40,774 nt of DNA from a virus. The stretch spans positions 1 through 40,774 of IMG/VR virus record IMGVR_UViG_3300009093_000077. One strand, written 5' to 3'. A program made the position numbers and the translations under genes. The notes beneath the pieces are model-generated. The model searched no databases, was not told where the DNA came from, and was given only the letters and a program-made list of their open reading frames with translations. This document shows, piece by piece, positions 10,334-30,438 of the stretch (positions are counted from its first letter, which is position 1; each line of letters begins with the position of its first letter).

Positions 10334-10703
10334 AGCGGCTGAGTTCTCAAAAGAGACAAAGCGAGCCGCGCTAAAGCGCTCCGGTGGTCTCTGTGAGGCT
10401 TCTGGCAAGCGTTATGGCTTGGAAGATGGACAGCGTTGCAATGCGCCTTTATCGAAGGGCGTCATCTTCGATCATGACGATCCGGAAGCGAACTCAAAGA
10501 ACGCTACTCTCGAGAATTGCCGCGCGATTTGTCCGGTGTGTGATCGCTACAAGACATTCCTCATTGATATTCCGATGATCGCCAAGACCGTCAGGATGCA
10601 GGACAAGCATAATGGCATAAAGCGTCAGGGTCCGGCGCTCATGGGCACCAAAGCCTCAGGCTGGCGCAAGCGGATGAATGGCCAGGTGGAGAGAAGGTCA
10701 TGA
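10326..10703 (+). CDS. HNH endonuclease-like protein
   Basis: From the ATG at 10326 it has 125 residues. LKRSGGLCEASGKRYGL begins the domain. FDHDDPEANSKNATLENCR carries the His/Asp and Asn of the HNH core, and AICPVCDRYKT supplies a CxxC pair for zinc. It overlaps ninB by 8 bases and the recombinase by ATGA. Phage HNH proteins next to ninB may process recombination intermediates (similar in position to NinG/Rap); this is inference. Confidence 0.82.
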   Translation: MARAAEFSKETKRAALKRSGGLCEASGKRYGLEDGQRCNAPLSKGVIFDHDDPEANSKNATLENCRAICPVCDRYKTFLIDIPMIAKTVRMQDKHNGIKRQGPALMGTKASGWRKRMNGQVERRS

Positions 10704-11365
10704 CCACGTCTTATCCCTCCAAAAAAACTGCTTCAGTCCAGAAAGCAGGACGGTCTCATATACCCCCGGGGGTTCCCGGCTGTCCGCTTTTGCCGCCTAG
10801 CCTTTCTGGAAAAAACCGTCTTATGGGGTATGCGCGGGTGTCCACCGCCGATCAAAGCATGGACATGCAGGTTGAGCGCATCCTCAACTATGGGGTTCTG
10901 GACCGCGATTTATTCTGCGACGAGATTAGCGCTGTTGCGAAGAGGCCGGCCTTCAACCTTCTGAAGAAGCAGCTTTGGCCTGGCGACACCTTGGTTGTCT
11001 ATTCTCTGTCCCGCCTCCACAGAGACGCTCGCGAGCAACTCAACTTCTTTAAGTGGTGCGAAGAACAGCACATCAAAATCGTGAGCCTTACCGAGAACGT
11101 GGATATGTCCAAGTCTCACGGCAAGACGATGGCTGGAATTCTCGCGGTCATGGATGAGGCCGAGCGCATGCGTATCCGTGACCGCACCGCCGACGGAATG
11201 CAGACGCGCATTCGTCAAGGACAAATGATGGGGCGCCCCGTGAAACTGACACCGAGCGTCATCACGGAAATTAAGTCAATGAGACGGCGCGGGTTCGAAG
11301 TTTCGACAATTGCACGCAAGACAGAAGTGTCGAAGTCTGCCGTCTATCAAGCTTTGAAGTCCTAA
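10700..11365 (+). CDS. Serine recombinase (resolvase/invertase type) 1
   Basis: This 221-residue protein has an unusual 41-residue N-terminal extension (Pro/Ser/Lys-rich) before the resolvase domain. The catalytic domain opens MGYARVSTADQSMDMQ with Ser48 as nucleophile and Arg46 nearby; YSLSRLHRDAR and EAERMRIRDRT supply the other arginines. A Hin-type helix-turn-helix (FEVSTIARKTEVSKSAVYQA) ends the protein. It should catalyse site-specific exchange, either resolution or inversion; no crossover site was identified. The ATG overlaps the HNH stop (ATGA); an ATG at 10823 would give a standard-length resolvase. Confidence 0.88.
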   Translation: MTTSYPSKKTASVQKAGRSHIPPGVPGCPLLPPSLSGKNRLMGYARVSTADQSMDMQVERILNYGVLDRDLFCDEISAVAKRPAFNLLKKQLWPGDTLVVYSLSRLHRDAREQLNFFKWCEEQHIKIVSLTENVDMSKSHGKTMAGILAVMDEAERMRIRDRTADGMQTRIRQGQMMGRPVKLTPSVITEIKSMRRRGFEVSTIARKTEVSKSAVYQALKS

Positions 11366-18538: not shown

Positions 18539-19728
18539 GCCGCAAGATTCCCCCAGATGCGTGTATAGCTGGCGTGTGTTCCAGTCGCGGGGGTCGGGTT
18601 CGGAGGTGCCACGTAGAGAACCGACCATCCGGCATAGGTTGATGGCGTCGCGTTCAACTGAACCGGTGAGCCAGTTCCAGCAATAAAATGAAACTCACCG
18701 ACAATGGCACCAGTGCTATCGTTGAAACACTGACTTATGCCTCCGGTGAGCCCGACTAAGCCAGTTGTGGAAGTCGTAATAGAGCCATCCGAAGTATTGA
18801 TGGTGATAAGATAATTCGTGCTACCAGCCTGGATGAATAGACAATAGATTTGCCTGGTAATGTTGCTCTGGGACATTTGGGCATTGCCGCCTGCGCCAGG
18901 ACCAGCAATCAATCCTGGGAGCGGACTAAGCCAAATTTGACTGCCAGTTGTCGCGTCATACTTCGCGATATAATTAAAGCTAGAGCCTCCAGTATTACTG
19001 TAAAAGCATGCGCAAATGTTCCCGTCCGTCCGGTCCAGGAATAATCCGCTAGATGTTATTTTTGTCCACCCAGCATCAATATCGGTTGGCAGAATTGTCG
19101 CGAGCACTGAATGCGTAATAGCATTCACGTCTACTTTATATAGCAGGCAATTCGCAGCGCTTGAGCTGATAAAATCATAGGTCAAAATATAACCTATGCC
19201 TTGGCCCGGAATACCTCCACAACTATAGGCCTCAAGATTGCCACCATAACTTATGGCGCCAGCACTCCACGGTGTAAGGGGAGTAAGATCGGTTCTTACA
19301 AGGGTGAATTTATCCGAAACTCCCGTAAGGCCTGTAACTATCTGCCAAGGGGAACCACCTAAGTCCTCAATTGAACTCAAGGTTCCTTGGGGAAATGTAA
19401 CCCCAATCGTGTTTGCTTGGGTTTGTAAGAGAGTTGTCGCATCGATCTGATGCATGGTCGAACCGACATTGTCGGAAACGTAAAGGCCACTGGCATCCAA
19501 TCCGACAGGGTATTCTCGAAACGATCCCGGATATGCCGTGTTCTGCTGAAAAGCTAACTCGCCTCCGGTCGGAATATCAAACTTCGTCAAGTACGTTTTC
19601 AGATCAGAACTTGCTGGACCATATTGCCAAACAATACCATTCGACCAGTCGACGCGGCATTGCTGACTGTTTCCGGAATTATTTGTATGCGTGCTGATAA
19701 GAGATTGAAGCTTGTTCTGAAATGCCAT
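18535..19728 (-). CDS. Putative beta-propeller-like tail protein
   Basis: The ATG at 19728 overlaps the upstream stop (TAATG) and gives 397 residues beginning MAFQNKLQSLISTHTNN. Repeated strand motifs such as GLYVSDNVGSTMHQIDATTL, NCLLYKVDVNAITHSV, IAKYDATTGSQIW and YLITINTSDGSI look like the blades of a WD/PQQ-type propeller. It follows the second tail-fibre gene and precedes the lysis enzyme, so it is probably a receptor-binding or fibre-associated protein. It is unusually rich in Ser/Thr/Gly and low in charge. Confidence 0.65.
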   Translation of the reverse strand: MAFQNKLQSLISTHTNNSGNSQQCRVDWSNGIVWQYGPASSDLKTYLTKFDIPTGGELAFQQNTAYPGSFREYPVGLDASGLYVSDNVGSTMHQIDATTLLQTQANTIGVTFPQGTLSSIEDLGGSPWQIVTGLTGVSDKFTLVRTDLTPLTPWSAGAISYGGNLEAYSCGGIPGQGIGYILTYDFISSSAANCLLYKVDVNAITHSVLATILPTDIDAGWTKITSSGLFLDRTDGNICACFYSNTGGSSFNYIAKYDATTGSQIWLSPLPGLIAGPGAGGNAQMSQSNITRQIYCLFIQAGSTNYLITINTSDGSITTSTTGLVGLTGGISQCFNDSTGAIVGEFHFIAGTGSPVQLNATPSTYAGWSVLYVAPPNPTPATGTHASYTRIWGNLAA

Positions 19729-20375
19729 TATGGAATTGTCGCTATAAGGCTGAGAATGAACCGCGTCACAGTCGATATTGAATTGATGTTGAACCGAAGC
19801 GCCGTACCTGCCGCAATGGAAGTATTCCAACCGCTTAAGATATTATCGATGGAGCTTTGAGCGCTCGCGAGTGTCGGCGGCGTCGATGACACAATGGAGT
19901 TTGCTATTGTGGGCGGAGAATTGACCACGAATGGCGCAGCCCAAACATCCATCACGACACTGCCTGATATGGTGGACTGCATCACGGCGCTCTGAAGTGT
20001 GCATGCGACGGGGACATAACTGTCGGCACATATGCCTGTGCCAGGTGTCGATCCATCTCCGTCAACCGTGCATTCCGCCACGAGAAAGGTCGCCGGTAAC
20101 GTGATCTGCGGCGTTGTCGTATTGAAATCCCACTGCAGATTGCCGAGAGAGTCGAATACGCGCTGGCGATATTGCCCATCGCCCCAGATCGTACATTGCC
20201 CCATGCTGTCCAGGACAATGGGATTGGTATTCAATATTGAGAGATTGATGTCCTGATAAGTGTCCTTTGGAACCAGCGAGTTCGGGACATACATGGCAAC
20301 GGTGCCCCCGACCAAAGGCTTACCGTTGATGTCAACGAATTGATTCTTTGCATTCGGGATGATGCCGGAAACCAT
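19728..20375 (-). CDS. Tail fibre/spike protein 2 with shared N-terminal adaptor
   Basis: This 215-residue protein has an N-terminal adaptor (about 1-85): PNAKNQFVDINGKPLVGGTV, DTYQDINLSILNTNPIVLD and GDGQYRQRVFDSLG. This resembles phage tailspike head-binding domains such as that of P22. The adaptor is clearly homologous to residues 1-85 of the fibre at 20720-21721. The C-terminal part (about 95-215) is Ser/Thr/Ile-rich and likely a short trimeric tip. It probably attaches to the virion and binds the host surface. Confidence 0.75.
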   Translation of the reverse strand: MVSGIIPNAKNQFVDINGKPLVGGTVAMYVPNSLVPKDTYQDINLSILNTNPIVLDSMGQCTIWGDGQYRQRVFDSLGNLQWDFNTTTPQITLPATFLVAECTVDGDGSTPGTGICADSYVPVACTLQSAVMQSTISGSVVMDVWAAPFVVNSPPTIANSIVSSTPPTLASAQSSIDNILSGWNTSIAAGTALRFNINSISTVTRFILSLIATIP

Positions 20376-20723
20376 CTATGAGAACTCGAATTGGGTGGTT
20401 ACTTGATTGGTCGTGAGCGCAAGCGGTGTACTATCGGTGATAACGCATTTCAGAATGGCTTGCTTGAAATCTCCGCTCGCAACATTGGTGCTTGTGGTCG
20501 TGGTCTGAGAAGTCGGAGAGGTGATCGCGATGGTTGGATCACCCTTCACAACGGACCAGGCATAGGTGAATGGTCCTGTGCCTCCGACATGCGCGGCGGT
20601 GAATGTGCCAGAGGTGAGCGGACCATGTCCGGTCGTGACGATTAGAGTTGGGCCCGCATTGCCTTGGAGACCCCCTTCCGATCGCGGTCCTGCAACTACA
20701 AGCGATTGAAGACCGGGGATCAT
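20376..20723 (-). CDS. Ig/PKD-like accessory fibre protein
   Basis: This 115-residue protein has GGTGPFTYAWSVVKGDPTIA and ILKCVITDSTPLALTT, the pattern of a PKD/Ig-like beta sandwich. The start overlaps the upstream fibre stop (ATGA). It lies between the two fibre genes and may decorate or chaperone a fibre. Confidence 0.65.
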   Translation of the reverse strand: MIPGLQSLVVAGPRSEGGLQGNAGPTLIVTTGHGPLTSGTFTAAHVGGTGPFTYAWSVVKGDPTIAITSPTSQTTTTSTNVASGDFKQAILKCVITDSTPLALTTNQVTTQFEFS

Positions 20724-21721
20724 GAAATGTTGAGCAGCGGCGTGATAACCACTTCGGCGGAGGAGTGGACGTAATAGGCGAAGTAATCGATGCCGCTCAC
20801 GCCGCTAAGATTGACCGTGGAAATGCCGCCAGCAGCTTTGTAAGCGCCGCCCCATGTGATGGTGAGGCTGGATGCGGTCTGAGCTATGCGGATTATCCCG
20901 GATTGCCCGGCTTGGACGTTGATGGGATTGTTGAGGGTGTAGCTCGCGCCAATCGACACAATGAAGTTATTTCCAGTCGAGAAATCCGGTGTCGAGGCAT
21001 TGGAGGTAACGGTGAGCGTCTTTTCATCGCCCCAGGTCTGCTTCTGAAACTCGTCCGTTCCACCCCAGACATTATTGCCATTCAGAAGCGGGACGTTTGC
21101 GCCGGACGTGCCAATGTTGTGGGTTGCAGCCGTTCCGATCGATCCCGATGCTACCGGGAAATATCCGATGACTTGCCAATAACCGAGAATGTTGATGAAC
21201 TCGACAAACGCACTATCGCCGGCCTGCGTGGTGATATTTGCGGCGCCTGGAAGGATCAAAGACGTAGCGTTATAGGTGAGTTGTAGCGAGCCGTTGAACT
21301 GGACCAGATAGAGCGGATTGGCGAGACTGGCCGACGCACCGAAGCTATTGATCGTTGTCGTGCCAGTGATGAGGGCGTTGTTGGTGGCTATCGTGCCTAG
21401 ATCGGTTGTGGAAGCCGACGCGATTGAAGTCTGTGTCCCAAAGGCTGTCTGATTGGCCTGGGCAATCGTCTGATCCCAGATCGTGTTTCCATCGACATCC
21501 TGGAGGACCTGACGATAGCTCCCCGAGCCAAAGATGACCGCCTGCCCGCGCGAATCCAGGATGATGGGGTTAGTATTGGGGATGGTTTCAGCTGGGTCCT
21601 GGTAAGTATTTGCCGGAATTAGCGTTCCGACTTGGTAAAAATAGACCTGTCCGCCAACTAGCGGGTCGCCGTTTTGATCGATAAACTGTGCCTTCCCGTT
21701 AGGAAGGTTGGAGCCTGCCAT
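20720..21721 (-). CDS. Tail fibre/spike protein 1 with N-terminal adaptor
   Basis: This 333-residue protein begins with the adaptor PNGKAQFIDQNGDPLVGGQV, NTYQDPAETIPNTNPIILDS and GSGSYRQVLQDVDGN, homologous to P22-like head-binding domains and to the neighbouring fibre. Beta-rich repeats follow (NALITGTTTINSFG, LIWGGAYK-like strands) typical of fibre shafts, and the C-terminus is hydrophobic beta. It should bind receptors on the cell surface. Confidence 0.78.
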   Translation of the reverse strand: MAGSNLPNGKAQFIDQNGDPLVGGQVYFYQVGTLIPANTYQDPAETIPNTNPIILDSRGQAVIFGSGSYRQVLQDVDGNTIWDQTIAQANQTAFGTQTSIASASTTDLGTIATNNALITGTTTINSFGASASLANPLYLVQFNGSLQLTYNATSLILPGAANITTQAGDSAFVEFINILGYWQVIGYFPVASGSIGTAATHNIGTSGANVPLLNGNNVWGGTDEFQKQTWGDEKTLTVTSNASTPDFSTGNNFIVSIGASYTLNNPINVQAGQSGIIRIAQTASSLTITWGGAYKAAGGISTVNLSGVSGIDYFAYYVHSSAEVVITPLLNIS

Positions 21722-21797: not shown

Positions 21798-23984
21798 TCA
21801 CTGGCCGCTAGAGGGCGCGAGCAGATTATTTCTTACACTGAGGGCCGTGGGTACACCGTAGTGCCGGATGGCATTGGACCGGGCGAGAAGGTCATAGAGG
21901 TTCGCTGCACCCGTACCGGCTGATGGCGCTGCATTTCTCAAAACATAATTGCGGTAGAGATTGCTCTTGAGCGCCGATCCCCCCATTTTGCCGGCCGCCA
22001 GCAAGCCACCAATTCCAAGAGCAGCCTTTGGAATCTCTTCTGGGTTCATGGCCGCGAAAGCACCAGCGCTACCAATGCTTCCACCTTCCAAAATCCGATA
22101 GAGAAGTAGCCGTTCCGCCGTGGTGCTATTTGGGCCTTCCTTGAGGAATTCCTGACCGATGTCGGCCAGCTTTCCGATGTCGCCCGCGCCGGAATACGCC
22201 ATGTCCTTATAGGATTTCTTGACCGCCCCAAGCAGACCGGCCGGCGTAATTTCGCCTTCGATCCCGGCCTTGGAAGCAAGATCCTGTACAGTACGCATGT
22301 TCTTCCATTGGAGGCGCGCTTGCTTGAGATCAGCTAAATCTTGCGGGTTGGCGGAGGCCTGGAGAGCGTCGTCTAAGGCTGACCGGATTTGACCCGCATA
22401 TTGGCGAATATTCGGGTCCTTGCTGCCCATGGCAGCATCGAGCGGCGCACCCTTGCGTGTGAGAGCCTGATAGGTCTTGCCGTCAATCGTGCCGTCATCC
22501 GCTACTTTGGCTAGGATGCCGTTCATCTGGTTTTTGATGGGTTTGTATTCATTGTCGCCCATGACCTGCTGGGCTTCGGATTCGATAGAGGCGAATTTAT
22601 CCGCCATAGCGCCGGTCGCATCCGATGAAATCGTGGTGTTTCCGCCCACGCGGTTGAACACGCTTCCAATACGATCACGGGCAGATGACATGACCTTAGG
22701 CGTCAGATTGTCCGCATCCTCTCCGAAGGTACCAGCAACAGCACGGGTAAAGGCCGTTCTCTGCGCTGCGTTCTGAGATTCCAGACCACTCATGGGCATT
22801 TTGCCGATGGCAGAATCCGCCAGTTTGGCGAATGGGCTTTGGCTGATCTGGCTTCCTCTTAGAGGAATTCCGAAGCGGTCAATGGCTTCCTGGGCTAGAG
22901 CGGCGCGCGCCGGATTCATGCCGCCGCCGAACAACGAGTTATATGCCGCGCCGCCAAGCTTTTTAGCTCCCGGAAGCACAGAACCAAGAGTACCGCCGAA
23001 CTCTGCGCCTTCTTTGATCTGGTCGCCAATGTCTTCATCCGAAGCGCTAGAGGTTGCAGCAGCAGCTGCGCCGCCCTGAAGCGCTCCAGCTGCGCCTTTG
23101 GAGGCTAGCCGCGAAAGGGTTCCTGCGCCCCCGGTGCCAGATAGGAAGTTGATCAGTGGTGCAGATGCGGGCGCTGCAACTCGTGCGGCACTCGCAAGAG
23201 GGGCTAATACTTCCCCGCCAGCAGCCAAGGCCGGGAGCGATCCCGCGACCTGACCTAGGACACGGCCACCTCCAGCCGTTAGATCATTGCCATAGGTACT
23301 ATTGAAGGTATCTCGAGCATTGACGTTATAAGCGTGCGCCTGATCCGCTGTCGGGAGTAAGCCTCCCAGCGTGACTGGCCCGATTTTCTTGTCCACCCAT
23401 TGGGCAATCGGATCAACGCTCGAAACAACGTCTCGCGCGCCCTGGACAACACCTGCCGACGCACGCTGAAGCCATGGCTGTTTATCGGCAGGAACCGAAG
23501 GCGTGGCTGCTTTACCTGGAGCTGCCGGAGCCGCGCTTTGCTGTCCTCCGAGCGCACCTAGCAGATCATCGTCAGAGACATTTTTAACTGGCGCGGCCTG
23601 CTGAGAACCGATTGTGTTCAGTAGATCGTCATCTGATATGTTGCTTTTGCCCATAATGACTTGCCGTCTCAGCTTTGGCGCGAATGAGATGTGAACATGG
23701 TCGCCGCCATCCTCGATCTGATCGAATGGGATTCCGCTGGCCGCCAGTTTGCTTGCCGCCGTCTTGCTATCCATTCCATTGGGAAGGACAAAATCGAAGG
23801 CTTGGCCTGAGAGGTGCGCGGAATTCGGCACACCACCAACCGCAGCGTTCTTTGCGGGCGAGCGCAAACCGCTTGTGATCTGAACGGGCGATCCAAGGAA
23901 CTGGCTGATATAGCCAGACGGATCGGATTGCCAATCACTGTCCGCCACCGACCCATCCTTGCTGCTTGGCATAGAGGGCGTCAT
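21798..23984 (-). CDS. Ejection protein with N-terminal M15 peptidase domain
   Basis: This 728-residue protein combines two functions. Residues about 22-105 match the M15 (D,D-/L,D-peptidase) fold: ITSGLRSPAKNAAVGGVPNS, HLSGQAFDFV with His57 and Asp64, and GGDHVHISF with His96 and His98 as zinc ligands. The remaining 600 residues are Ala/Gly-rich and helical, as in internal virion or DNA-ejection proteins of P22-like phages, with duplicated SDDDLL motifs near 117 and 137. The fused peptidase would open the peptidoglycan during DNA entry. The start overlaps the upstream gene by 50 bp; an ATG at 23972 is also possible. Confidence 0.82.
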   Translation of the reverse strand: MTPSMPSSKDGSVADSDWQSDPSGYISQFLGSPVQITSGLRSPAKNAAVGGVPNSAHLSGQAFDFVLPNGMDSKTAASKLAASGIPFDQIEDGGDHVHISFAPKLRRQVIMGKSNISDDDLLNTIGSQQAAPVKNVSDDDLLGALGGQQSAAPAAPGKAATPSVPADKQPWLQRASAGVVQGARDVVSSVDPIAQWVDKKIGPVTLGGLLPTADQAHAYNVNARDTFNSTYGNDLTAGGGRVLGQVAGSLPALAAGGEVLAPLASAARVAAPASAPLINFLSGTGGAGTLSRLASKGAAGALQGGAAAAATSSASDEDIGDQIKEGAEFGGTLGSVLPGAKKLGGAAYNSLFGGGMNPARAALAQEAIDRFGIPLRGSQISQSPFAKLADSAIGKMPMSGLESQNAAQRTAFTRAVAGTFGEDADNLTPKVMSSARDRIGSVFNRVGGNTTISSDATGAMADKFASIESEAQQVMGDNEYKPIKNQMNGILAKVADDGTIDGKTYQALTRKGAPLDAAMGSKDPNIRQYAGQIRSALDDALQASANPQDLADLKQARLQWKNMRTVQDLASKAGIEGEITPAGLLGAVKKSYKDMAYSGAGDIGKLADIGQEFLKEGPNSTTAERLLLYRILEGGSIGSAGAFAAMNPEEIPKAALGIGGLLAAGKMGGSALKSNLYRNYVLRNAAPSAGTGAANLYDLLARSNAIRHYGVPTALSVRNNLLAPSSGQ

Positions 23985-25428
23985 CGTGAAGCTTATTCTT
24001 CTGCGCCTGTGACATGCCGGAAATCATTTTCTTCTGATCGTCGCGGTTCAAATATTGGAACTGGAACACGCGTGGATCGAAGTGCTGGTTGAACTCGGTT
24101 GAGAACGCGCCATAGCTCTGTGGGCCGTTCTTCTGCTGATATGCCTGCCAGGCTTTATTCTTAGCGGCGATGGCGTCTTCGTTGCCTTGAAGCAGCGAGA
24201 TAATGCCTTTATTGCCGAGCTTGGATAGTGCGGAGTTAGGACTCGTGCTGATGGTGGATTCGAGCTGGAAGTTCGCTCCCGTGCCGCCCAATTGCTGGAA
24301 TTGGCTCTGAGCAAGCTGGGTTGCCATCTTGTCGAATTCTTCCTGGGCTTTGACGCTATCCGTTCCAACGCCTTTGAGGCCCATGGTCTGGGCGACACGA
24401 TTGGTAGCGGCCAAAGCTTCTTTGGACCATTTGGCACCGGGTCCTGGCGTGAAGTCCGAGAGAGTGGCGTTGAGATTCTGAAGCAGGCCCTTGTTGGTCG
24501 GAACCTGATCCGCGCGGCCCTGAAGCGCGGAGGCCATCTGGATCGAGGCTTGGCCCTGACCTGAACTTGCGGTTTGCTGGGCCGGGGAAAGTCCTGCGGC
24601 CTGTCCAGCAATATTATTGCCTGGAGCAGGAGAGCCGCCGCCATTGTTTCGCTGATACTCAGCCTCATAGGGATTGTTGCCCTGAGGCGCGCCGATATAG
24701 CGAGGCGTCTGATCTGGTCCAACAACGGTTGTGGTGGGCGGAGGTGCGGCTTGGATAGTAGGCCCTACCTGCTGTGGTTGGCCAAAACGAGGCGTTGTGA
24801 TCGGAGCCATCCCCCCTCCGGGGAGCTGGGTCATATCCGGTTTGGGATAGAGCGCATCCAGCCGAGCCTGATTTTCCTGGACGGTGATTTGCTGGGATCT
24901 GATCCAGTTCGGAATCTGACTTTCGTCAATTTGCCCAAGCTGACCGTTCTGGCCTGGAATGCGCGGAAGCGTGGCATAGATACGGGCTTGCTCCTCTGGA
25001 GTGGCAACACCGACCGTGCCCGCATGTGCGAGAGCTGAAACCACATCAGAGGATGTCGCTTTGGGACCCAGCGCCGCGAGAGGGGCAAGATAACCTGACA
25101 CCGCCTCGAACTTCTTGCGCGCTAGATCAAGCTGTCCCTGCTGGATGGCCATATTGCGCTGTTGCGCTTCCTGAGATTGGCGGAAGGCTTCAGGCAGGCC
25201 ATAGGTGACGTTGGGATTAGACTGGATCAATCCCGGCAGCTTAGAAGCGTCAAGTTGTCCGGTCGAAGGATCAATAGCGTTCTTATAAATGTCGCTGAGG
25301 CCGAGATTGGTGTTGTATTGCTGCTGAAAGAGCTTGTTCTGGTTGATGACGTTTTGCAGCCGCGCAAAGCCGGATATCGTATCGATAGGATTTTGCGCTT
25401 TGGGATAGAGATCAGAAATATCGCCCAT
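23935..25428 (-). CDS. Internal virion/ejection protein, Gln-rich
   Basis: This 497-residue protein is Gln/Asn/Ala-rich (LQNVINQNKLFQQQYN, SQEAQQRNMAIQQGQLDLAR) and mostly helical, with a Pro-rich low-complexity middle (about 195-275). Such composition and the position between a small ejection protein and the M15 fusion fit a P22 gp16/gp20-type DNA-injection protein. It starts two bases after the upstream stop. No enzyme motif is visible. Confidence 0.7.
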   Translation of the reverse strand: MGDISDLYPKAQNPIDTISGFARLQNVINQNKLFQQQYNTNLGLSDIYKNAIDPSTGQLDASKLPGLIQSNPNVTYGLPEAFRQSQEAQQRNMAIQQGQLDLARKKFEAVSGYLAPLAALGPKATSSDVVSALAHAGTVGVATPEEQARIYATLPRIPGQNGQLGQIDESQIPNWIRSQQITVQENQARLDALYPKPDMTQLPGGGMAPITTPRFGQPQQVGPTIQAAPPPTTTVVGPDQTPRYIGAPQGNNPYEAEYQRNNGGGSPAPGNNIAGQAAGLSPAQQTASSGQGQASIQMASALQGRADQVPTNKGLLQNLNATLSDFTPGPGAKWSKEALAATNRVAQTMGLKGVGTDSVKAQEEFDKMATQLAQSQFQQLGGTGANFQLESTISTSPNSALSKLGNKGIISLLQGNEDAIAAKNKAWQAYQQKNGPQSYGAFSTEFNQHFDPRVFQFQYLNRDDQKKMISGMSQAQKNKLHDDALYAKQQGWVGGGQ

Positions 25429-25429
25429 A

Positions 25430-26074
25430 TTATGCGCCCCAACTGCTAACGCCAGTTACAGCAGGACCAAGCGCGCCGCCAGCTGCTGAATTGTTCGCAC
25501 CGTTCAAATAGGCATAGAGGGGAAGCGCGCTACCGATAGAGTTGCTCGCGCCAAGGATGCCGGCTGCTCCGGCATTACCGGCGGCCATTTGGCTGTTCGC
25601 GACACTGGCACCCGTATTAGCCCCTACACCAGCAATCGCGGCACCCGCCCCATACCCCGTATTTGCCGAGTTCTGAAGTGCGCCCGCGTAACTACCCCAG
25701 GTGCTATTCGCCAGTCCGGTGGAATAGTTCGCTGCACCCTTCAAAGCTGCACCAGAGCTTCCAAGCCCTCTTGCTGCTGCACTATTCTGAACAGATTTAA
25801 GACCCTGCCCAAGCGTGAATTGATAACCCGGCAAGCCTTCTAGAGTGGATTGCATCGTAGATGAATTGCCGCCGACACCCAGAAGGCTATTCAGCGTGTT
25901 GTATGCCCCAAGGCCGCCCTGGACATATGGGTTAAGCTCAGCCTGATTTTGCTGATAGATTCCAAGCTGTGTGTTTGTGGCTTTATTGGCCGCACCAGCC
26001 TGTTGCCCAGATGCGACGACAGAACCAACCGCTCCAATAGCCGCAGCGCCAAGAACCGCCCCAGCAAGTCCCAT
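25430..26074 (-). CDS. DNA-ejection/transfer protein, Ala/Gly-rich
   Basis: This 214-residue protein begins with a hydrophobic segment (GLAGAVLGAAAIGAVGSVVA) and contains GYQFTLGQGLKSVQNSAAAR followed by GLGSSGAALKGAANYSTGLA, a conserved stretch in small ejection proteins of P22-like and other podoviruses. It has few charges. The ribosome site is good (GGAG, 7 bases upstream). It is the first of three consecutive ejection-type genes, matching the order of small, medium and large ejection proteins. Confidence 0.78.
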   Translation of the reverse strand: MGLAGAVLGAAAIGAVGSVVASGQQAGAANKATNTQLGIYQQNQAELNPYVQGGLGAYNTLNSLLGVGGNSSTMQSTLEGLPGYQFTLGQGLKSVQNSAAARGLGSSGAALKGAANYSTGLANSTWGSYAGALQNSANTGYGAGAAIAGVGANTGASVANSQMAAGNAGAAGILGASNSIGSALPLYAYLNGANNSAAGGALGPAVTGVSSWGA

Positions 26075-26075
26075 G

Positions 26076-27134
26076 TTATGCTCCTAACTCAACGCGATAC
26101 ATGCGCCCAAAATCCTGGGCTCCAAGCCGCTTATAAAGCGCGCCAATGCGCTCCCCTTCCCCGCGCACACCGGCCCGCATGAACACTTCGCTCACGTTTT
26201 TCTCTTTGAGGTTCGCCATTGCGGCGCGCTGAAGTTTCAGGCCAAGGCCAGGAAACGCTTTATCCGCAAAGAATGTTGTGTGTTGGGCGATAGTCTGCCC
26301 AGGCGCTTCGAGCGAAGGGGAAAGCAGCGTCATCAAATATCCAAACGGTTTACCGTTGGAACGAGCCACCAGAATTTGCATGAAGCCGAGACTGTGAAGT
26401 TTGCGGAACAGATCCCAATTCTTGCTGATCCAATTGTCGGGATGCTCCTCAACATCTGCGCAATGCTGGCGAAATAAATCCTGACAATCTCTCTCCCACA
26501 CATCACAGGATTCCTCTTTGATGGTGACGGAGCCACAATCCTTCGCCTTAATTGCGATATCCTTGAACATAGCTTGCGCCGCCTGCCCGGCTAGTTTGTT
26601 GATGGCTTTCATGTTGGCGCCGACATAGCGCGTCAGGGCGGGGAAATTCGTCTGAACATTGGTGGCGTTCCATTTCTCCCACCATTCTCGGTCGTGCCCA
26701 TAGTCAGGAATACAGAACTCGAACAATTCACCGCATGTCACTTCGTCTTCCAGGTCGGCATACTCATATGACCGAACATTCGGCATGCGCGCTTCGACCT
26801 GATCTAGCTTATGGTTCAGCTTTATGAGCCCTTTGCGAATCTCATAGAGATTTTCCACACCGATCCTTGCGAGACTTCCGATCACCTCATTGACCGGCCG
26901 CCTAATAGTCACCACCCGAATATCGGGCGCATATTTCAGCAAGAGCCGCCAGAACGGTGCGCCGGCTGTTTCGCAAGTTCCAAACTTGTCGAGCGAGAGC
27001 CAGTTCTTGATATCGTCCAGCGAGCGCATATAGCGGAGCTGATCATGGCCGCATTCCCATTCACGATAGGACAGAAACTTTGATAGCCATGTGGTACGCG
27101 AGCGGGGAAGAGAAAGAACGACAAAACCGCTCAT
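26076..27134 (-). CDS. Sulfotransferase-like plus GNAT acetyltransferase-like fusion
   Basis: This 352-residue protein has two enzyme-like domains. Residues 1-190 resemble sulfotransferases: VVLSLPRSRTTWLSKFL (5-21) fits the PAPS 5'-phosphosulfate loop, and VVTIRRPVNEVIGSLAR (74-90) fits the 3'-phosphate-binding motif. Residues about 205-350 resemble GNAT N-acetyltransferases: QILVARSNGKPFGYLM, FPGLGLKLQRAAMANL (294-309, acetyl-CoA loop) and YKRLGAQDFGRMYRV. GNAT-like proteins are known among podovirus virion genes. It lies between the collar protein (ATGA overlap) and ejection genes. It may modify virion or host surface components; the substrate is unknown and catalysis is unproven. Confidence 0.78.
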   Translation of the reverse strand: MSGFVVLSLPRSRTTWLSKFLSYREWECGHDQLRYMRSLDDIKNWLSLDKFGTCETAGAPFWRLLLKYAPDIRVVTIRRPVNEVIGSLARIGVENLYEIRKGLIKLNHKLDQVEARMPNVRSYEYADLEDEVTCGELFEFCIPDYGHDREWWEKWNATNVQTNFPALTRYVGANMKAINKLAGQAAQAMFKDIAIKAKDCGSVTIKEESCDVWERDCQDLFRQHCADVEEHPDNWISKNWDLFRKLHSLGFMQILVARSNGKPFGYLMTLLSPSLEAPGQTIAQHTTFFADKAFPGLGLKLQRAAMANLKEKNVSEVFMRAGVRGEGERIGALYKRLGAQDFGRMYRVELGA

Positions 27135-27745
27135 GTCTTGATCGCATAAATGATGGAGGCATAAGGCGGCACAAAATTCACGGGAGCGCCCGAGCCAGTA
27201 TTATCGACGGTTATTCCCGTGGTTGCGGTTCCGGTCGTGCCGCCAGTTGCCTGATATGTTCCCGCTGCCGCGCCTGCCGTGTTGAGAGAGGTTTGGGAGC
27301 CGGTGGTATGATTGTGTCCTGGGTCGGTGATCGTGTGGCTGTGCGCTGGTAACTGCGCGACGCTGAGCGTAAAATTCGTGGCCCCGCCCAGGCTGGAGAA
27401 TGCAAAATTGCCGGCCCCGACGAGAAACCTATTCTGCAAATTAGGAAGGTTGAACGTGCTGACGCCATCCCCTGCTCCCCAAGTTTCCCCGATGACTGTA
27501 AAAAGCGCGGCATAGATGGTCCGACTTACCGCTGCTCCGCTGCAAACAAGCCAGCCTGTGGGCGGTGTAACCGCACCGAACGCCATAATCATGCCGCTGG
27601 GACTTGTGTTGCCGCCTGACGATGCGCCTGTGCGAAGCCATAGGCTTATGAGTAGGCGATACCAGGGCTGACCGATGCGATAGGACTGATCCGTGATAGG
27701 CGCAGTGATCTGAGGAAAGCCCTGTAGATTGCCTGCCCCGCTCAA
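27131..27745 (-). CDS. Phage tail-collar domain protein
   Basis: This 204-residue protein carries a tail-collar domain: SGMIMAFGAVTPPTGWLVC, GDGVSTFNLPNLQNRFLVG and a His-rich LPAHSHTITDPGHNH that may bind metal as in T4 gp12. The N-terminus contains WYRLLISLW. The C-terminus ends VPPYASIIYAIK, standard for the family. It starts at TTG within an overlap with the gp10-like stop. It is likely a tail tip or short-fibre component. Confidence 0.85.
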   Translation of the reverse strand: MSGAGNLQGFPQITAPITDQSYRIGQPWYRLLISLWLRTGASSGGNTSPSGMIMAFGAVTPPTGWLVCSGAAVSRTIYAALFTVIGETWGAGDGVSTFNLPNLQNRFLVGAGNFAFSSLGGATNFTLSVAQLPAHSHTITDPGHNHTTGSQTSLNTAGAAAGTYQATGGTTGTATTGITVDNTGSGAPVNFVPPYASIIYAIKT

Positions 27746-29193
27746 GTGGCATGCCCTATGACATCAATGTAGGCGCCCTGGAGAGATGTCTTGACAGGAG
27801 CGGACCAAGACAACTCAAACACCCGGTCTCGCGCCATACCTAGGCGGTTGAACTGAACGGAAGTCAGATAATTGCCGGTATTGCCTAGCGTTTGAATAAT
27901 GGCATCTCCGAATGAGCGGCCCGCATCGTCCGAGAGGCGCAGCGACACCGAGCAAGTGTCATTCGTGCTACCGTTCATCTCGTCGCCCACTTCCATAGCG
28001 GCAATGAGATTGCGATAGGTAACGCGCTTGTTCTCATTCACTGAATGCGGAAAGGATCGGATGCGTGGAATGGGCTGGCCGTTGTCCAGATAGGTGTCCA
28101 GATCCAGGCTGTAGAGATTGCCGTTCTGGTAATCGCCCACCAGAATTTTGTTGTTGAACACACAGGCGCAGTTGCCGCGCCAGCGATGCAGATTGCCATT
28201 GGCGTCCATCCAGGAACGCTGATGCCAAGCATTCTCAGCGATATCGAAAACCCAGGTAACGTCCTCGCTGGGGAACGTCAGGACGTAGAAGGGATGACCT
28301 TCCTGGAGGTAGGTGAAGCCAATCGCGTCATCCTTGATCGCATAGGAATTAATCTCATTCTCAATGGCTTTGGTCGAGATAGCTGTGGCGTTATATTGCG
28401 CGCCACGAAATACCACCGAATTTCCATATAAATCCTGGCCCAGCCAATAAAGCGCCAGATCGAACTTGGCGATGGAGCCGACCGAAGCGCAGCCCTGTTC
28501 CACGAAGGCGCCTGGCATTTCCTGGAAGGCAAAATCGGCCGCGCCGGAATCGAACCATACCTCCGAGGTGGATTGACCTATCAACCATATCTCGCGGTGC
28601 ATGACCGCAAGCCCGGCAATCTTGTCGTTGCCGCCCGTCTTGGCCGCGATATCGAGCGGGTCAAAGCCAATGCCGGTCGTGAGCATCGTGTAAGTGACAT
28701 TGCTCAGCGTGAAGAAAAACTGGTTGGAATCGACGATAGAGAACACAAGGTAGGTATCTAGATAGTCGACCCGCGAGGCCGGATACCAGTTGGTCTGGGA
28801 AATCGCCCCGTAAGCGAAAGTCGTCAGATCGATTACGAAACCATCCTGGGACCCATCCACGATCACGCAGCAGAGCGTATTGTCCTTGATCGAAACAAAA
28901 CCGGTATAGCTGTTGATGTTGCCTAGGAAGTTCCAGCCATAGGATTGCGTGAGTAGATAAACGGCATTGCCTACCACCACGAAACAGGCCCCATTCGAGG
29001 CTGTGTAGGTCGCTCTCACCTGCCCAATGACCGGCGCGGTTGTTTCTAGCGAAAGCCCTGGCGTGGGATAGGTCGTAAATGGAAAGGGCGAATCTGGCGG
29101 ATTGCGTTCTGTATAGAGGTTCACGCACCGTTGCGCGTCCGCGATGATCGATCGCGCTTGATACATTCCCATGATAAGTGGGATTTGCGTCAT
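27742..29193 (-). CDS. P22 gp10-like tail hub / packaged-DNA stabilisation protein
   Basis: This 483-residue protein matches the gp10-like family: MGMYQARSIIADAQRCVNLY, PFTTYPTPGLSLETTA near the start, and repeated propeller-like strands such as NAVYLLTQSYGWNFLG, EIWLIGQSTSEVWFD and ITFPSED-like motifs. In P22 this protein closes the portal after packaging and holds the tailspikes. The start overlaps the MptE-like stop (ATGA). The length is close to the family's usual 470. Confidence 0.85.
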   Translation of the reverse strand: MTQIPLIMGMYQARSIIADAQRCVNLYTERNPPDSPFPFTTYPTPGLSLETTAPVIGQVRATYTASNGACFVVVGNAVYLLTQSYGWNFLGNINSYTGFVSIKDNTLCCVIVDGSQDGFVIDLTTFAYGAISQTNWYPASRVDYLDTYLVFSIVDSNQFFFTLSNVTYTMLTTGIGFDPLDIAAKTGGNDKIAGLAVMHREIWLIGQSTSEVWFDSGAADFAFQEMPGAFVEQGCASVGSIAKFDLALYWLGQDLYGNSVVFRGAQYNATAISTKAIENEINSYAIKDDAIGFTYLQEGHPFYVLTFPSEDVTWVFDIAENAWHQRSWMDANGNLHRWRGNCACVFNNKILVGDYQNGNLYSLDLDTYLDNGQPIPRIRSFPHSVNENKRVTYRNLIAAMEVGDEMNGSTNDTCSVSLRLSDDAGRSFGDAIIQTLGNTGNYLTSVQFNRLGMARDRVFELSWSAPVKTSLQGAYIDVIGHAT

Positions 29194-29990
29194 TTGCTCA
29201 TAAGTTGGTGGACATGGGCAATCATGCCGTCGCCATGGATATTGATGCCGATATCGAAATAATCCGCGAGTTGAAAGAACTGCTGTGCGCCTTGTGCTTC
29301 AGCAGCCCAGGTGCGCGTTGTCTGGAAATTCCGGCCGCCTATAACTTCGTCGCCTGAAACGTCGCCACCATAATTGAGTGTCAGGACTTCCTTTTCGGAC
29401 CAATCATCATCAACGGTGGCGTGATGTCTGCCATCCATGTAGCAGCCGTCCCAGCCATAGAACTCAAAATCCGTATAGCCGAGCCGATGCATGAGCCATG
29501 CAGCGCACATGGTGATAGAAGAGCAAAGCGCAATGCGGGATTTTCCATCTGCTTCATAGTCTTTTAGATGCCAGAGTCGGACATCGCGGCCCTGAAGTTT
29601 TCTGAACAGGTTTGGATGACACTTATTTGCCAGGAAATACGTCGTCCGGTCTGGCGGATTATCTGGGATGAGGCCCGCGACTTCCTCTTGCGGATCGCAG
29701 GCCGCCCAATAGGTCGGATATAGCCCATTCTTGAATAGGCGCATGGCGCTATTGAGAGCCAGCGTCGGGCCTTCAAGATTCCAGAGATTGACATCCGAGG
29801 CGCTCGGGCCGCCGGCAATGATGTTCAGTTTCTTGCGGGTTACTGCCTCAGGCAGATTGCGCTTGAGGCTTGACGCGATTTGCTCGTTGCAAACATCGTC
29901 GGCAACCGGGGTGACAAATTGAAACCCTGTGATGATCGATCCAGCCGGAATATCTCCACCTGGAGGAATGACCGGGATATCAAGCCCCAC
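29190..29990 (-). CDS. MptE/DUF115-like Rossmann-fold protein
   Basis: From the GTG at 29990 (a TTG at 29999 is the alternative) it has 266 residues. LNIIAGGPSASDVNLWNLEG followed by LALNSAMRLFKNGLYPTYW and AACDPQEEV resembles DUF115/MptE-like proteins, a family that includes flagellin-modifying glycosyltransferase-like enzymes and pterin pyrophosphokinase relatives. Further on, DFEFYGWDGCYMDGRHH may form an active-site loop. It is embedded in the tail module between a virion protein and gp10, so it may modify a virion or host-surface molecule. Substrate unknown. Confidence 0.7.
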   Translation of the reverse strand: MGLDIPVIPPGGDIPAGSIITGFQFVTPVADDVCNEQIASSLKRNLPEAVTRKKLNIIAGGPSASDVNLWNLEGPTLALNSAMRLFKNGLYPTYWAACDPQEEVAGLIPDNPPDRTTYFLANKCHPNLFRKLQGRDVRLWHLKDYEADGKSRIALCSSITMCAAWLMHRLGYTDFEFYGWDGCYMDGRHHATVDDDWSEKEVLTLNYGGDVSGDEVIGGRNFQTTRTWAAEAQGAQQFFQLADYFDIGINIHGDGMIAHVHQLMSK

Positions 29991-30438
29991 GCTGCACAAC
30001 CCAGAACGTCTTGTTCACGGCGAGATAGCGATTGGCCTTGTTGGGCGCCAAAAGCGTATCGGCCACATTGGTCGAAGCCGCGCCAATCTTTCCGCCTACC
30101 GCTGGATAGACCTTCACGGAATGGGTAGCGGCGCACCCGACCTCGACCTCAAGCCCGGTCGCAGCAGTTGGCAGGATCACGCCATGGTTGGAGTTCGTCA
30201 GGGAAACGGTAACGAGTGCCTTCTGGGAAGTGATCGGGGTGGCGTTGCCCTGCGTCGCACCAGCGCCGGCCAGAAGCTGCGGCGTGACAGTGAGCGTGCC
30301 GGAGAAGGTCTGGTTCGCCGCCGTGACATCCTGAGGCGTGCCATTGCCGGTCAGATTGTTGCAGACAGCGATGATGCTGTTCATTAGCTCGCCGCCAAAG
30401 AGACGGTAGCCCAGGATTTGGGTAGGAATAGCGGCCAT
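29980..30438 (-). CDS. Putative virion decoration protein, 152 aa
   Basis: It starts with a good ribosome site (GGAGAAAA before the ATG) and is beta-rich: TFSGTLTVTPQLLAGAG, ALVTVSLTNSNHGVILPTA and VKVYPAVGGKIG. Proteins of this shape occur in phage head or tail modules, but no exact role is known. It lies downstream of the HNH insertion and upstream of the MptE-like gene, overlapping the latter by 11 bases. Confidence 0.65.
   Translation of the reverse strand: MAAIPTQILGYRLFGGELMNSIIAVCNNLTGNGTPQDVTAANQTFSGTLTVTPQLLAGAGATQGNATPITSQKALVTVSLTNSNHGVILPTAATGLEVEVGCAATHSVKVYPAVGGKIGAASTNVADTLLAPNKANRYLAVNKTFWVVQRGA

Follow-up and report, generated by a model that had tools for sequence, protein, structure and literature searches.

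A fusion of sulfotransferase-like and GNAT-fold domains encoded next to the DNA-ejection genes of uncultured short-tailed phages

Introduction

What might a protein that joins two enzyme folds be doing between the tail collar and DNA-ejection genes of a short-tailed phage? The question is raised by a 40,774-base virus record (IMG/VR IMGVR_UViG_3300009093_000077), the whole of which is referred to here as the window, and which by gene content we judge to be a temperate P22-like short-tailed phage; its marker genes are those of a portal, a major head protein, Hc3, an integrase, a repressor and an Erf-like protein. A preliminary description of this DNA had read a 352-residue frame in the tail module as a sulfotransferase-like domain followed by a GNAT-like domain, and had guessed at an undescribed system, perhaps a surface-modification set formed together with an MptE/DUF115-like gene nearby.

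A fusion gene in the slot of P22 gene 14

The frame is present at exactly 26076..27134 on the minus strand (352 aa, ATG start), between the collar and ejection genes. Upstream it is adjoined by a tail collar-domain gene at the P22 gene 26 position (27131..27745, minus; PF07484, E 1.6e-21), the stop of which shares the bases ATGA with the start of the fusion, and beyond this lies the head closure gene Hc3 at the P22 gene 10 position (27742..29193, minus; phrog_578, E 6.1e-101). Downstream, one base apart from the fusion stop, begins a gene for a P22 gp7-like ejection protein (25430..26074, minus; phrog_598, DNA ejection, E 8.5e-20), followed by a second ejection-module protein of 497 aa, which is placed at P22 gene 20 by position only and matched none of the families searched (23935..25428, minus), and by a large ejection protein of 728 aa at the P22 gene 16 position (21798..23984, minus; phrog_26400, DNA ejection protein, E 1.1e-43). 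The order Hc3, collar, fusion, gp7-like, 497 aa and 728 aa is that of P22 genes 10-26-14-7-20-16, and the fusion therefore occupies the gene 14 slot.

Other features of the window may be recorded here. The large ejection protein carries an M15 peptidase domain at its N terminus (PF08291, E 2.3e-11), likely a cell-wall enzyme carried in the virion. Two tail-region proteins (19728-20375 and 20720-21721, minus) have the N-terminal family phrog_26190 in common, differ in their C-terminal parts and are possibly interchangeable tail fibres, and a DNA invertase-type recombinase gene is found at 10700-11365 on the plus strand.

The N-terminal half

Residues 1-190 (26565..27134, minus) match phrog_10855, a PHROGs family named 'hydrolase' (E 1.3e-10), and were modelled by AlphaFold with a pLDDT of 83 and a pTM of 0.73. 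When this model was compared with the PDB by Foldseek, ranks 1-27 were all sulfotransferases (best E 6.7e-4), and VIA-align superposed it on TPST1 with Z 11.1 over 159 residues. The Pfam Sulfotransfer match of the window protein is weak (16.6 bits versus a curated cut-off of 27); among 19 family members, 11 match Sulfotransfer_4 and 7 match Sulfotransfer_3, with L007 and L010 exceeding the curated cut-off. A phmmer search of the single fusion protein against the PDB returned nothing useful, and a PDB profile search ranked sulfotransferases, weakly, after a de novo designed helix bundle, which we discarded because its match, to a short helix that is repeated, is due to chance.

The residues of the putative cofactor site were then compared across 85 distinct family sequences. 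The stretch that had earlier been picked out as PAPS-loop-like, LPRSRTTWLSKFL, spans residues 9-21; the 5'-phosphosulfate-loop-like motif as delimited here, LPRSRTTWLSKFLSY, spans residues 9-23 (27066..27110, minus) and contains P10, R11, R13 and W16, identical in 85/85. The loop reads PR[S/C]R[S/T] in every sequence, in keeping with the pattern P-[KR]-S/T-x-[ST], with Arg at a fourth position that is usually Gly. In the 3'-phosphate-type motif RRPVNEVIGS (residues 78-87; 26874..26903, minus), R79 and S87 lie eight residues apart and are likewise unchanged in all 85, as are C28, H30, E55, T56, W62, R63, R78, Q112, R116, N159 and Q161. His30 and the acidic residue at position 31 (27042..27047, minus; Glu or Asp in 85/85) are candidates for the catalytic base, a role suggested for one or the other by position.

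In fold, in the 5' loop and in the position of the 3'-phosphate residues the N-terminal half resembles TPST1/2 and the cytosolic sulfotransferases; these are, however, larger eukaryotic proteins of 10-15% identity and give no guide to the substrate of the fusion. Closer relatives, with the same domain at 20-27% identity, are the stand-alone phrog_10855 proteins of Pseudomonas phages (Pamexvirus/Abidjanvirus) and their Casjensviridae relatives. As in the fusion, H30, R79 and S87 occur in all of these (they are invariant in six stand-alone homologues of long-tailed phages) and the PR loop in nearly all, whereas the proteins differ in standing alone, in belonging to long-tailed phages and in being encoded among replication and nucleotide genes, not before ejection genes. 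At two Casjensviridae loci (L026:3132-7740 and L036:126-4750) the stand-alone homologue is found near a MazG-like pyrophosphatase, a cysteine dioxygenase and a kinase, a neighbourhood suggestive of a nucleotide or DNA-modification cluster.

These relatives raise the question of whether the N-terminal half could be some other P-loop transferase, nucleotide-kinase-like, and not a PAPS enzyme. The stand-alone homologues bear NTP hydrolase annotations and sit near nucleotide or replication genes, the PHROG name 'hydrolase' would also fit, and nucleotide kinases tie with TPST1 in Z (guanylate kinase, Z 11.4, 140 aligned), a tie to be expected since both are P-loop relatives. Sulfotransferases nevertheless cover more of the domain and top the Foldseek list, relatives pass the Sulfotransfer_3/_4 cut-off, and the PRSR loop and R79/S87 spacing fit PAPS sites. 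The Walker A motif GxxxxGK[ST] was looked for in the N-terminal half and is absent, which together with the PR[S/C]R loop and the eight-residue spacing places the domain on the sulfotransferase side; a kinase-like enzyme is accordingly very improbable. The Foldseek result and the site residues kept in 85/85 sequences show the N-terminal half to be a sulfotransferase-type domain with a preserved, putative PAPS-type site, as the preliminary description had it.

The C-terminal half

Residues 201-352 (26079..26534, minus) match the acetyltransferase family phrog_1249 (E 2.2e-7) and align in VIA-align with several GNATs at Z 15.8 (for 3d8p, rmsd 2.7 over 140 residues). The GNAT core described earlier is thus found as a fold, but its acetyl-CoA site is not of the canonical kind. 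The motif-A loop FPGLGLKLQ (residues 294-302; 26229..26255, minus) is atypical: G298 is kept in 84/84 of the sequences that have a C-terminal half, in which the loop reads [P/R/K/Q]-[G/N]-[L/I]-G-x-[K/R/M], and the signature Q/R-x-x-G-x-G/A is absent from all 84. Because the CoA signature is missing and the loop shortened, this half is termed here a GNAT-fold domain and is not filed as an acetyltransferase.

The phrog_1249 proteins K1E gp27 and a Zobellviridae GNAT are the closest phage relatives of the C-terminal half (hhalign probability 98% to K1E gp27 plus the Vibrio protein) but stand alone, without a sulfotransferase half. Both ct2os315 and Vibrio phage 1.015.O have a stand-alone GNAT in the slot of the fusion, in the latter before large virion genes. 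K1E gp27, the nearest stand-alone phage GNAT, differs in that its gene precedes the portal gene and its motif-A loop is two residues longer than PGLGLK.

Extent and conservation of the family

When viral contigs were scanned with only the GNAT half as query, 174 relatives were returned, the best 80 of which are all fusions with the same domain order; other scans added approximately 20 more. The fusion family thereby extends over about 100 uncultured phages and reaches a small number of bacterial genomes, those of Sphingomonas, Azospirillum rugosum and a Beijerinckiaceae bacterium. Within Azospirillales the gene is sporadic (2 of 82 genomes), as expected of a prophage gene, and a search of plasmids gave no match. 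By tblastn with five queries, the fused protein was not found in 50,697 phage genome records, in which stand-alone relatives of one or the other half alone turned up; our literature searches found no phage sulfotransferase-acetyltransferase fusion, an earlier remark on a relation between GNATs, gp13 and gp14 being possible.

An assembly or frame artefact is ruled out by the presence of the fusion in 84 of 85 distinct sequences, and purifying selection acts on both halves (dN/dS about 0.05-0.26 between pairs of relatives). With each fold independently supported and in the order first proposed, the fusion is a real, conserved and apparently undescribed family, in which each fold by itself is known; to this extent the initial guess of something new has held up. 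In a single contig (L023:5983-6570) the N-terminal domain occurs alone as a protein of 195 aa in the slot of the fusion, with a gp7-like gene directly after it. Since the tree nests this protein among fused proteins, in a subgroup with support of 96/90, it looks like a case of loss of the GNAT half, and the sulfotransferase half, which persists there, looks like the core of the protein.

Genomic neighbourhood and its bearing on function

An ORF directly follows the fusion in 96 of 99 loci (two contigs being counted twice) and, in 95 of these 96, starts -1 to +5 nt from the fusion stop. An iterative search within the set, which possibly over-included Ala-rich proteins, assigns most of these ORFs to the P22 gp7 family, and phrog_598 independently confirms the gp7-family identity of the downstream gene in nine members. 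The remaining ORFs code for small proteins of the gp14 type and are found mainly where the structural genes of the contig are T7-like. Two distinct clades whose structural genes are T7-like (L028/L078, and L003 with L007-L014) show the same adjacency, so the fusion and the ejection gene have stayed together through module exchange.

The proposed partner behaves quite differently. The MptE-like/DUF115-like gene of the tail region (29190-29999, minus; match below the Pfam cut-off) has a homologue in 1 of 33 fusion-bearing contigs, which may be fragments, as against the ejection-type ORF that follows the fusion in 96 of 99 loci. Of 17 loci with flanks that were inspected directly, only L002, the closest relative of the window, has the MptE-like gene. 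A surface-modification set built on the two genes is rejected on these counts.

The fusion might instead be an enzyme that modifies the host envelope or small molecules. Late in infection it would sulfate and acylate sugars or lipids of the host surface, perhaps to keep progeny from sticking to debris. Sulfotransferases and acetyltransferases are frequently sugar-directed, the bacterial genomes with the gene are those of Alphaproteobacteria (Azospirillum, Sphingomonas, Beijerinckiaceae), and sulfated envelope sugars are known in this group. Against this stand the rarity of the MptE-like partner, the locking of the fusion to the ejection gene and the overlap with the collar gene, which puts it in a structural operon. 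The slot before the first DNA-ejection gene is suggestive of a part in constructing the ejection machinery and not of an effect on the host surface, the tight linkage to the ejection genes speaks for virion assembly over envelope sugars, and we hold an envelope enzyme to be unlikely.

Virion assembly need not involve catalysis, and two well-known phage genes share the slot. P22 gene 14, between genes 26 and 7, encodes a head morphogenesis protein (DUF2824, phrog_651) which at 151 aa and without a sulfotransferase half differs from the fusion, and to which the GNAT half compares with an hhalign probability of 0.8%, one P22 sequence serving as the comparison. T7 gene 13 (Phage_T7_Gp13, phrog_308) lies between the tail nozzle gene and a gp14-type gene, and the SIO1 GNAT has been suggested to correspond to T7 gp13 (PMC6775973). 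T7 gp13 differs from the GNAT half of the fusion in showing no detectable sequence similarity to it (hhalign probability 0.1%). A separate, divergent T7 gp13-like gene is moreover present two genes upstream of the fusion in six soil contigs (L003, L007, L009, L011, L013 and L014), among them L003:4533-5060, L009:4606-5136 and L014:4133-4696; three of the six genes, when compared with phrog_308, matched it at E about 1e-11. From the profile comparison and this coexistence we rule out that the GNAT half is simply T7 gp13. Between the gp13-like gene and the fusion lies a gene for a protein of 315-364 aa (L003:5054-5998, with equivalents in L007, L009, L011 and L014), which has a Cys-x-Gly-Gly-rich start and no family match and is possibly a lipoprotein or ejection component.

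The fusion might then be a functional equivalent of P22 gp14 or T7 gp13 in another sense, namely a non-catalytic assembly factor in which two enzyme folds have been reused as a chaperone or scaffold for ejection proteins, without transferase activity. The shared slot would suit such a factor, as would the description of T7 Gp13 in Pfam as a probable scaffold, the fact that the gp13 homologue of a T7-like phage was not among the virion proteins detected in its proteome (PMC4517105), and the lack of a GNAT CoA signature in 84/84 sequences. Sulfotransferase-site residues identical in 85/85 would, on the other hand, be unexpected for a dead site, and they are common to stand-alone homologues at unrelated genome positions; the GNAT half, as noted, shows no profile similarity to T7 gp13 or, in the comparison with one P22 sequence, to P22 gp14, and in six contigs gp13-like gene and fusion coexist. 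We regard a non-catalytic factor as somewhat doubtful.

A proposed enzyme of the ejection module

The reading that we prefer, at a probability of roughly 0.42, is that the fusion is a late accessory enzyme with two domains, belonging to the ejection module of short-tailed phages and acting on ejection or tail proteins. It is favoured because the site of the N-terminal half is preserved and because adjacency to the ejection gene extends across at least two structural-module types. The fusion would be made together with the adjoining ejection protein and would act on ejection or tail proteins while particles are being assembled. Its N-terminal half would transfer sulfate to a protein side chain; the GNAT half would attach an acyl group or, in view of the altered CoA loop, serve mainly to bind and position the client. 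In the P22-like members it would replace the small morphogenesis gene 14.

Several observations weigh against an ejection-module enzyme. The adjacency may stem from module inheritance and not from function, and the GNAT half lacks the canonical CoA signature and has been dispensable at least once (L023). The nearest cultured homologues of the N-terminal half have genes of replication and nucleotide metabolism as neighbours, and not ejection genes. Finally, the coexistence of a T7 gp13-like gene in the six T7-like soil contigs means that there the fusion is not simply a replacement for gp13.

It is tempting to go further and picture a dual transferase that covalently modifies the phage's own ejection proteins, by sulfation and possibly then by acylation, as a step needed for an infectious ejection machine, although we think this quite unlikely. 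If true, post-translational modification would be encoded by widespread uncultured short-tailed phages themselves. The phages that host the fusion are common in soil and water metagenomes, and none is among the phage records searched. Small enzyme-like or morphogenesis proteins recur before the ejection genes of short-tailed phages, as P22 gene 14, T7 gene 13 and the Zobellviridae GNATs illustrate, and the fusion family brings a well-preserved predicted transferase site to this slot. Since the family offers a candidate cofactor, a defined set of site residues and, in the adjacent gene, a likely client, the role of the proteins encoded there becomes testable.
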